Shown here one piece after another: positions 25,479 to 28,260 of a stretch of 64,000 nucleotides of DNA (its first letter is position 1; each line of letters begins with the position of its first letter). Where the stretch lies: positions 1 to 64,000 of the forward strand of contig JABFQP010000006.1 of assembly GCA_019685655.1 (NCBI GenBank), written 5' to 3'. This stretch comes from Candidatus Bathyarchaeota archaeon A05DMB-5. Lineage in GTDB: Archaea; Thermoproteota; Bathyarchaeia; Bathyarchaeales; Bathycorpusculaceae. The notes beneath the pieces were generated by a model. That model was not told where the DNA came from. It searched no databases and saw only the letters and a program-made list of their open reading frames with translations. The translations under genes and the position numbers were made by a program.

Positions 25479-26039
25479 TTACTCGTAGAATATGAGTTGC
25501 TGCTCTTCCAGTATATTATGGAGTTTATGCACCGCGTCATAAACATCCTGTTCTTTCTTCGCCCCAGTGCAAACCAACTTTCCACTTGCAAACAACAATA
25601 TGACAACCTTCGGCCCATCCATCCTGTAAATGAGCCCAGGAAACTGTTCAGGCTCATACATTGTCTTTCCAAGCGTGTACGCTGACTTTTCCAAGTCAAT
25701 CATTCCGCCTAGGCTTGCAGACGCCACAATGTTCTGTATTTTCAGCTCCGGCTTACTAATGATTATTATGCCGCCTTTCTTCAGTTCCTTAATCACTTTC
25801 ATGACAGCCCTGCGCGCTTCCTTCTCTGATTTTGCACCGGTGCAAACCATCTTTCCAGAGTTGAAAATCAGCGTAGCCGTCTTCGGCCGCTTAAGCCTAA
25901 ACACTAACCCTGGAAACTGTTCTGGACGGTATTCCACGCCTGGATAACCTTTCACAACCGCGTTCAAATCAACTTTCTGATTCAAGGTTGCAGAAGCAAC
26001 CACGTTTTCTATGTTTATTTGAGCTTTAACTTTCGGCAT
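25479..26039 (-). CDS. tbp: TATA-box binding protein TBP
   Basis: The archaeal general transcription factor, 186 residues, made of two direct repeats. Each repeat holds the IVASA/VVASA, EQFPGL(V/I)(F/Y)R and SGK(M/L)VCTGAK blocks that form the saddle contacting the minor groove. It recruits TFB and RNA polymerase to TATA promoters. The ATG at 26039 starts the conserved MPKVKAQINIEN. Upstream are a TTTATAAAG box near 26073-26081 and a TATTTAAGC near 26060-26068; the latter would give a nearly leaderless message. Confidence 0.97.
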   Translation of the reverse strand: MPKVKAQINIENVVASATLNQKVDLNAVVKGYPGVEYRPEQFPGLVFRLKRPKTATLIFNSGKMVCTGAKSEKEARRAVMKVIKELKKGGIIIISKPELKIQNIVASASLGGMIDLEKSAYTLGKTMYEPEQFPGLIYRMDGPKVVILLFASGKLVCTGAKKEQDVYDAVHKLHNILEEQQLIFYE

Positions 26040-26157
26040 GAACATCACTTCTTATAGTGAATGCTTAAATACCCTTTATAAAGCATTAGGTGGAAAATTC
26101 AACCTTGCTCATCAAACTACACATTACAGTTTTTGCTTTAATTGGGCACTAGCCATT

Positions 26158-26562
26158 TTAGGATGTTTCTATAATTGCCCTAACTAAACCTCCAACTAAG
26201 CCTCCAGCAGCTGCTACAACTACACCGAAAATGTTCAATAGTATCGCCACAATTCTTATGGCAAGATCAAGCGCTTCACTCACAAATCCAACTACGAACT
26301 CGCCAAGCGGCACAAGCCCACTTATCAAAAGCATTGTGGCCATTACTCCGCCAGCGATTCCTGCAAGAAAACCTGCAAAAGCTCCTTTACGCATTCCACT
26401 CCCAACTATTAATCCTGCAAGAAACCCTCCTGCTAAATGAGCAATTATTGGAAGAAAGCCCCCGCAAAAAACGATAACAAGAAACCCCACAGAAAATCCA
26501 AGAAAAAAGCTACTTAATTCGCCGTTATTTTTCGTCTCAGCGTCTTTTATTAATGGTTTCAT
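26158..26562 (-). CDS. Glycine-rich four-helix membrane protein
   Basis: A 134-residue membrane protein with four hydrophobic helices rich in Gly, Ala and Val (for example AGGFLAGLIVGSG and GLVGGLVRAII), resembling DUF5518-like archaeal proteins. The Gly spacing suggests tight helix packing. It overlaps the preceding signal-peptidase paralogue gene by four bases (ATGA), so it belongs to the same operon. It may act with the exported products or the peptidase pair. Function unknown. Confidence 0.65.
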   Translation of the reverse strand: MKPLIKDAETKNNGELSSFFLGFSVGFLVIVFCGGFLPIIAHLAGGFLAGLIVGSGMRKGAFAGFLAGIAGGVMATMLLISGLVPLGEFVVGFVSEALDLAIRIVAILLNIFGVVVAAAGGLVGGLVRAIIETS

Positions 26563-27251
26563 GTGCGTCCATTTCTGTTCTTTCTGAGTTTTGGAATCAA
26601 AAGTTTCACAATTATTATGGCAAATATTAAGATCATTACTACGAGCATTCCAAAATAGCTAGATACAAAAAATACTAGGTGACCAATCCAAGGGACTCTA
26701 AAAATAACTTTGCCGATCAGAAGCTTTTCCGAAATCATGCCGTTCCAAGTGTAGTTTCCACTGTAATCAGACCAAATGTCATATTCTCTTTCGCTTAACT
26801 GTTCAGGCCATTTATGTATTCCTTTTCCGTCACTTTTCGTCTGGAAATATACAGTGCCGTTCACTTCTGTTTTTGCTACAACTCGCGTTATGACTAGTCC
26901 GCTTTCTGGAGAAGGACCCGCTTGTGGCACACGAAACACTACTATGTCGCTGTTGGGATATTCAGAGTTAACATTTTCCGCGTCTACCCCTTGAACCACT
27001 ATTACGTCTCCTCTGTGCAGCGTATGTTCAAAGGGATGCGTAAAACCATCACATGAAACTTGCACAGTGCACATGTCACCTGAAGAAACAATAAGCAGAG
27101 GCTGTTCTGTGTTTAACGCAAATTTTAAGGTGAACCAAAAACCCAAAAGTCCAACAGCCAACAATAAAAGGAATATAACAATTTTTAGAAATCTTTTTTT
27201 GCGGGCTCCTTCGAGTTTTGCAAAACCTATTTTGCGTGGTTTTGACTGCAT
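26559..27251 (-). CDS. Signal peptidase I paralogue lacking catalytic Ser and His
   Basis: A 230-residue membrane protein clearly related to the signal peptidase encoded next door: FALNTEQPLLIVSSGDM matches FALNTEHPALAVVSTSM, and GDVIVVQG, DIVVFR and the late IPWIGHL-like segment (VPWIGHLVFF) also match. However, the residue before the Met, the catalytic Ser in the family, is D59, and the His of the VHR motif is T122 (ITRVV). A 14-residue insertion follows the Met. It therefore looks like a non-catalytic partner or decoy. It overlaps the next gene and follows the active gene by 13 bases. Confidence 0.8.
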   Translation of the reverse strand: MQSKPRKIGFAKLEGARKKRFLKIVIFLLLLAVGLLGFWFTLKFALNTEQPLLIVSSGDMCTVQVSCDGFTHPFEHTLHRGDVIVVQGVDAENVNSEYPNSDIVVFRVPQAGPSPESGLVITRVVAKTEVNGTVYFQTKSDGKGIHKWPEQLSEREYDIWSDYSGNYTWNGMISEKLLIGKVIFRVPWIGHLVFFVSSYFGMLVVMILIFAIIIVKLLIPKLRKNRNGRT

Positions 27252-27264
27252 ATTCCTAAGTGTA

Positions 27265-28260
27265 CTATTCTGTTAATATAGGCTTTTGAGCTTCAATAAC
27301 GGTTTTCGCCTTTTTCTTATGCCTCAGAAATTTCATCAGTTCCCAAACGTCCACCACTATCAAAAGAATTATTGCAGCTTGAGCCCACGAGAAGGTTGCA
27401 ACACCCAATCTTATTCCCTCATGCGAGCCGTCACTTACGTTAGCGTTGATTGTGTATGTTAGGAAATTGGAAATTAGATAAACTTCGTGAACGTTGCTGA
27501 AATCGTGGTGAAACTCTACGTCAGGATACATCCCATGAATTGGAACGTTTTGCGCTGGGTTGGCTCCTGGCTGCCAGAAAGTGAAGGCTCCCCATAAACT
27601 AAAGGCTATGAAAGTTATGATTAGTATGTTTATGACAAGAAGATAAACCATGCTTAGGCTGATTTTTCCAAACAGTTTCTTTTCTTTCCATGTTTCTGTT
27701 TTTTCGCCTTGTTTTTCTTCTTTTTCACTTTCGAAGGGAAACATCAGAAACAACACTATTATAATGATAATTATGATTGTGAACAAATACATGTTTGCCT
27801 TCGACTGCATAAGCAGCGCTAAATTGCCAACCCAGGGAATTTTTCCTACAACTTTTCCGACAAGTAAGGATGCGGGCCAAGGAGAAAATTGGTCTTTTTC
27901 TCCAGGAACGTTGTCTCCTTTTGTGTAGATTATATAGCCACTAGTGGTGTTTTCTATTTTGACGGCTCTGTGGACAATAAGGTCTTCTGGTTTAGATTTG
28001 TTTCTGAAGACGACAATGTCTCCGTCGAGGTAGTTGGCATGTATTTGTTCTGGTGGTATGCCTTGGACTATTATTAGGTCGCCTACTTTTAGTGTTGGCA
28101 GCATACTTGTGGAGACTACTGCTAATGCGGGGTGTTCAGTGTTAAGCGCAAATTGTACAGTGTACCAGAATCCGAAAACTATGCCTAAGATTAGGAAAAT
28201 TGTTATTATAGTTTGGAAATACTCGTTTTTCCACAATTTCTTGAGAGTTGCCGTTGCCAA
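27265..28260 (-). CDS. Signal peptidase I (Sec11-type) with extra C-terminal membrane domain
   Basis: A 331-residue signal peptidase of the archaeal/eukaryotic Ser-His-Asp type. An N-terminal membrane helix (about 17-37) leads to S52 in VVSTSMLPTLKVGD, H97 in LIVHRAV and D116 in TKGDN, the expected triad. It cleaves signal peptides of exported proteins at the outer face. After the usual C-terminal helix there is an unusual extension of about 140 residues with an exterior loop and two more helices. It heads an operon with an inactive-looking paralogue and a small membrane protein. Confidence 0.88.
   Translation of the reverse strand: MATATLKKLWKNEYFQTIITIFLILGIVFGFWYTVQFALNTEHPALAVVSTSMLPTLKVGDLIIVQGIPPEQIHANYLDGDIVVFRNKSKPEDLIVHRAVKIENTTSGYIIYTKGDNVPGEKDQFSPWPASLLVGKVVGKIPWVGNLALLMQSKANMYLFTIIIIIIIVLFLMFPFESEKEEKQGEKTETWKEKKLFGKISLSMVYLLVINILIITFIAFSLWGAFTFWQPGANPAQNVPIHGMYPDVEFHHDFSNVHEVYLISNFLTYTINANVSDGSHEGIRLGVATFSWAQAAIILLIVVDVWELMKFLRHKKKAKTVIEAQKPILTE

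Follow-up and report, generated by a model that had tools for sequence, protein, structure and literature searches.

In the genome of Candidatus Bathyarchaeota archaeon A05DMB-5, a Sec11-type signal peptidase with its catalytic residues in place (P1) is followed directly by a paralogue (P2) in which the catalytic serine and histidine have been replaced. Comparison with related genomes indicates that P2 descends from a different, insertion-bearing type of signal peptidase, which P1-type enzymes appear to have displaced at the same locus. In the explanation that we consider best, and whose chance of being correct as a whole we judge to be about even, the displaced enzyme died catalytically and persists in a few genomes as a non-cutting protein, kept by selection, that binds peptides beside P1.

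The window, i.e., the whole stretch of 64,000 nucleotides that was analysed, belongs to contig 6 of a genome of 1.51 Mb that is 98.6% complete. The genes considered here lie on the minus strand in the order P1, P2, P3, TBP:

27265..28260, minus strand: P1, Sec11-type signal peptidase, apparently active; 331 aa, TTG start
26559..27251, minus strand: P2, signal peptidase paralogue, apparently dead; 230 aa, ATG start
27021..27077, minus strand: codons of P2 residues 59-77, Asp59 plus the insert with C61 and C67 (derived from the ORF start)
26886..26888, minus strand: codon of P2 Thr122, at the catalytic His position (derived from the ORF start)
26158..26562, minus strand: P3, DUF5518 membrane protein; 134 aa, PF17647 E value 1.1e-7
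25479..26048, minus strand: TBP gene, landmark of the locus (presumed from its repeat sequence)

The name TBP (TATA-binding protein) is one that we assume from the repeat sequence of the protein rather than from a family search, and the other gene names used here beyond TIGR02228 and DUF5518, among them pyrE and MBL, are likewise presumed from sequence. Only 13 nt separate P1 from P2, so that the two genes probably share one transcript, and the start of P3 overlaps the end of P2 through an ATGA. Both peptidase ORFs stand where the preliminary description of this DNA had placed them as tandem paralogues, with the motifs FALNTE, GDxIxVQG and DIVVFR in common. A further, short signal peptidase is encoded on contig 3 of the same genome. 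The order peptidase, TBP, then (convergent) pyrE and MBL-like genes (25479-28260 in the window, and related loci) is found repeatedly in several families of the same taxonomic order, and in most related loci the TBP gene follows a P1-type, insertion-type or dead peptidase gene.

Judged from its residues and predicted fold, P1 is an active-looking, intact archaeal/Sec11-type signal peptidase. It scores 81.2 bits against TIGR02228 (archaeal type I signal peptidase), above the curated cut-off of 51.85, and in a PDB search it matches SEC11A (7p2p) with an E value of 1.9e-11, with S52 and H97 aligned to the SEC11A Ser and His that we take to be catalytic. D116, within the motif TKGD, is the candidate catalytic Asp, and S52, H97 and D116 are all present. 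The AlphaFold model of P1 (pLDDT 84.2) matches SEC11C with a VIA Z score of 9.3. A mutated His-Asp-Ala triad is mentioned for SEC11 in the available text of PMC13385932, and the available text of PMC4343526 describes a Ser/His/Asp mechanism for SPI of M. voltae and for Sec11a and Sec11b of H. volcanii. P1 belongs to these archaeal type I signal peptidases, which are also the ancestral family of P2; the H. volcanii pair differs from P1 and P2 in that both of its members are active in vitro (PMC4343526, same text, in which the word 'inactive' does not occur). P1 has no insertion and carries a C-terminal extension after residue ~200. This extension (residues ~200-331, 27265-27660 in the window) is conserved, is predicted to consist of a transmembrane (TM) segment, a small beta domain and another TM segment, and is common to P1-type enzymes of two families (f1 and f5), whereas short signal peptidases are without it; it is possibly a built-in accessory domain.

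P1 and P2 align with 30% identity over 210 residues (E about 1e-20), and Ser52, His97 and Asp116 of P1 align with Asp59, Thr122 and Asp141 of P2. This alignment confirms the earlier reading that the longer protein keeps its three catalytic residues, while the shorter one carries Asp for Ser and Thr for His. P2 scores 31.4 bits against TIGR02228, below the cut-off of 51.85, and the best E value in a sequence-only PDB search with P2 was 1.2. Its topology comprises a TM segment (residues 10-46), an outer domain (~47-195) and a second TM segment (199-227). The P2 model (pLDDT 90.5) gave a single Foldseek match below 0.001, to 7p2q_A (E 4.4e-7, for the predicted fold), and VIA Z scores of 11.6 to SEC11C (rmsd 3.0, 146 aligned), 10.9 to SEC11A and 8.9 to SipA, and the predicted model has the outer-domain fold of SEC11. 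SPCS1-3 are not among the matches listed for P2 in the PDB and structure searches, an absence that does not exclude homology. The S1-pocket residues Val52, Met57 and Phe61 of SEC11 have V55, M60 and L78 as counterparts in P2, identical to those of active relatives, and the counterpart of pocket residue Val95 is I121 (SEC11 pocket residues from the available text of PMC13385932). P2 is thus SipA-like in that the catalytic Ser is gone and the cleft residues are kept, and it also retains the cysteine pair of the insert (C61, C67).

Dead P2 orthologues occur in four genomes from three genera of one Bathyarchaeia family, namely the genome of the window (G000), a second genome of the same genus (G050), G077 and G002. 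Conservation of the Ser-to-Asp and His-to-Thr changes in orthologues had been proposed as a check, and D59 and T122 are found in 4/4. A sequencing error in a single genome was rejected as the origin of the dead protein, given its presence in four genomes of three genera. Altogether, 123 distinct signal-peptidase-like ORFs from the loci were classified as 84 insertion-type, 24 P1-type, 4 dead and 11 other. Ser and His are both present in 84/84 insertion-type and 24/24 P1-type ORFs; the 11 others, which are partial, short or diverged, have Ser in 6/6 that show the site and His in 8/9, the ninth being an X. A profile of the dead clade, run over 256 genomes of the class, scored the four at 416-444 bits and the next best at 239, and 398 genomes drawn from the phylum yielded no further dead P2; outside the family, catalytic residues were checked in five genomes only (G127, G131, G132, G133 and G149).

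The insertion follows Met60 of P2 and amounts to 14 residues relative to P1, as described previously, but it is not peculiar to the dead protein. It is present at some length in the 84 insertion-type ORFs, and at least two Cys occur in it in 73/84, a count from all 84 ORFs, since several rows left out of the 60-row alignment used below lack the Cys pair. Some insertion-type enzymes, at L146, L150, L158-L160, L162-L164 and L171, have inserts of greater length, reaching 36 residues, or inserts in which one or both cysteines are missing. The insertion was rejected as a marker of the dead protein because active relatives carry it, and a change of TKGD to TKSD was rejected as a diagnostic because that Ser is also present in one P1-type ORF whose catalytic Ser and His are intact. 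As the insertion is common in active relatives, P2 is not a copy of P1 that gained a loop and instead belongs to the insertion-bearing branch. Trees of 67 and 65 of the 123 ORFs (hand-chosen, with two very long rows removed from the second) recover the dead clade as monophyletic (100/100) and nested within the insertion-type enzymes (99/92); its exact sister is uncertain (89/70), and P1-type enzymes form a separate, weakly supported group (92/37). Orthologues with intact Ser and His, which the preliminary description had named as grounds for refutation, did not turn up, the intact proteins being separate branches.

The pattern of substitution was examined in an alignment of 60 of the 86 available rows (P2 + 85), hand-picked for size and also used for folding, of which 56 are active insertion-type proteins taken from the 84. 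Compared with these 56 active-looking rows, only five of the positions conserved in at least 80% are uniformly altered in the four dead proteins (S59D, W70F, V121I, H122T and V178L), and 32 of the 49 positions conserved in at least 90% are retained in all four. By these counts, the uniform changes cluster around the active site and the structural framework of the protein is left in place.

Within the family, 90 genomes, most of them fragmented assemblies, were scored for peptidase type, giving 23 with a P1-type gene, 59 with an insertion-type gene bearing Ser and His, and 8 with neither by script, one of which (G083) contains a partial insertion-type gene. Both types in active form were found together in 0/90 of these genomes. 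P1 and an insertion-type gene coexist in four genomes, exactly those whose insertion-type copy is dead, although this pattern does not amount to 90 independent trials because the genomes are related. An insertion-type gene lies between 200 nt overlapping and 130 nt upstream of TBP in 39/59 genomes; among the rest, some genes are at contig edges or have intervening genes before TBP. P1-TBP gaps without an intact P2 hold traces of the old gene in 3/14 cases (G001, G042 and G087). The trace in G001 (L109 675-872) is a 65-codon frame in which the first TM segment is fused to the C-terminal tail of the G002 protein (E 3e-12 and 6e-11), an in-frame internal deletion by which the entire outer domain of the dead peptidase has gone. 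G042 and G087 contain C-terminal TM fragments, for which the HMM test gives E values of 0.0017 and 0.00025, respectively, the best value among 50 shuffles being 0.05; by tblastn the G042 fragment reaches 9e-7, and that of G087 reaches 0.006, no better than controls (three hits, the best two at 0.005 and 0.009, in 10 randomised sets). Such fragments are what displacement of an insertion-type enzyme by P1 would be expected to leave. Family f5 has P1-type genes as well (G127 and G131-G133), and one arrival of P1 and several arrivals are both compatible with the data. Tandem pairs of active-looking insertion-type genes lie upstream of TBP at L014, L030, L146 and L150 (genera g5 and g16), and doubling of the peptidase gene is recurrent at the TBP locus.

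The ancestor of P2 would have been an insertion-bearing signal peptidase encoded upstream of the TBP gene, until an insertion-less P1 with a C-terminal extension took over the same locus. After this takeover P2 would have lost its Ser and His, a loss seen by comparison with the active relatives. Most P1 lineages would then have lost the old gene or kept fragments of it, and a few would have retained an intact, selected protein.

Close measurements of selection come from a single pair, G000 and G050 (NG86). The dN/dS of the whole of P2 is 0.34 (bootstrap 0.22-0.50), that of its outer domain (46-195) is 0.22 (0.12-0.39), and that of its TM segments and tails is 0.59 (0.31-1.06), i.e., weakly constrained; for the same pair, P1 has 0.14 and six other neighbours 0.01-0.15. 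Purifying selection on the P2 domain fits a retained non-catalytic role, and because the shape is still under selection though both cutting residues have changed, P2 probably does something other than cutting. The main rival explanation is that P2 is a slowly decaying relic, whose catalysis and function were lost after P1 took over and whose frame is kept open by recency alone. It accounts for the graded series among P1 genomes, which runs from an intact dead protein (G000, G050, G077, G002) through an excised domain (G001) and TM fragments (G042, G087) to nothing recognised in the others, as well as for the weak constraint on the TM segments and tails. Yet the frame is open in all four lineages, with identities falling to about 45%, both substitutions and most structural positions are the same in all of them, and even the upper bound on the domain dN/dS of 0.22 reaches just 0.39, so that we regard mere decay as somewhat unlikely. 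Over time the gene has nevertheless proved dispensable. G075 and G076, which a three-gene tree places near genomes with a dead P2, lack it, the outer domain has been lost in frame in G001, a congener of G002, and P2 of G002 itself forms a long branch in the tree, as might be expected of a gene that is being lost.

P2 could also be a negative regulator, acting either as a competitor of P1 for preproteins or by binding to P1 itself. The retained pocket residues and the 13-nt spacing, with its probable single transcript, are compatible with such a role, but sequence does not tell a regulator of this kind from a helper, and we consider it an unlikely answer. Less probable still, and in our view very unlikely, is that P2 has remained a hydrolase, with Asp59 and Asp141, Asp158 or Thr122 forming a new active site. 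D59, T122, D141 and D158 are indeed invariant across the four orthologues, but D141 and D158 are inherited from active insertion-type relatives, in which they are present in 56/56 and 54/56 rows, and in SipA the matching Asp was changed to Ala or Ser without effect, according to the available text of PMC4049620. By this precedent, no chemical role is required of Asp59.

P3 scores 32.4 bits against PF17647, over the Pfam gathering score of 27, and homologues are found in 29/90 family genomes including that of the window. None of the homologues in the 28 other genomes is listed at the signal peptidase locus, and P3 is missing from the other three dead-P2 loci. The earlier proposal of a coupled membrane gene holds in that the ORF overlaps P2, but not in that the arrangement is conserved, and a DUF5518 gene as a third component was rejected because it is found at the locus in the window's genome only. 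At the G050 locus (L103 7047-8096), a convergent ORF of 350 aa overlaps the end of P2 in place of the DUF5518 gene; it lies on the opposite strand, its start resembles a signal peptide, and its C-terminal part contains a TM-like stretch.

The nearest functional analogues of P2 are the bacterial proteins SipA and SpsA. In SipA of S. pyogenes (4n31), the catalytic Ser is replaced by Asp48 and the cleft is kept, and the available text of PMC4049620 reports that peptidase activity was not detected, that the protein is needed for pilus polymerisation and that direct binding of peptide could not be detected; because of the latter, peptide binding is an inference for SipA too. SipA and P2 share the signal peptidase fold, the Ser-to-Asp change and the kept cleft (VIA Z as above), but SipA is a bacterial Ser-Lys enzyme from a pilus operon, with an independent origin judging from its family, whereas P2 belongs to the Sec11 type with Ser, His and Asp, and no pilus or sortase genes were seen among the nearest annotated neighbours of P2. 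In S. aureus, spsA is adjacent to spsB, and Asp replaces the Ser of SpsA. The available text of PMC12445088 describes SpsA as an inactive type I signal peptidase paralogue without two catalytic residues. Like P2, it is an inactive paralogue of an active peptidase, but it is bacterial and of separate origin. In the eukaryotic complex of SEC11A/C and SPCS1-3, which has non-catalytic subunits, the models of P1 and P2 match SEC11 best. To our knowledge, SPCS1-3 are not dead SEC11 copies, unlike P2, which is a dead SEC11-type copy. The available text of PMC13385932 treats them as separate subunits. A search of the open-access literature found no pseudo-signal-peptidase that was archaeal or belonged to the Ser-His-Asp type, which is weak evidence.

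Returning to a displaced enzyme that was retained, P2 would be inactive in the test tube, and the cleft of its outer domain would still bind signal-peptide-like or other segments of exported proteins without cutting them, most likely segments like those that the ancestral enzyme cleaved. Its role next to P1 would be that of a non-catalytic partner, a chaperone or a decoy; scaffold, decoy and chaperone roles look alike at the level of sequence and cannot be told apart there. It is plausible, as the preliminary description suggested, that P2 serves the neighbouring peptidase as a scaffold or as a regulatory subunit. More specifically, and only tentatively, since we think it rather unlikely, active P1, with its TM-beta-TM tail, and dead P2 might form a heteromer in which P2 captures the signal peptides, so that displacement at a fixed locus would have given rise to a signal peptidase complex in these archaea.

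A few Gram-positive bacteria are known to possess dead signal peptidases. Here the loss is placed on a tree, and a SipA-like Ser-to-Asp change is seen to have arisen in a different branch of the family. Across neighbouring genomes the gene is active-looking, intact but dead, collapsed, fragmented or gone, and these states, together with the placed loss, make it testable by comparison when a dead enzyme gets kept for a new job. P2 is also a candidate for a non-catalytic partner of an archaeal signal peptidase.
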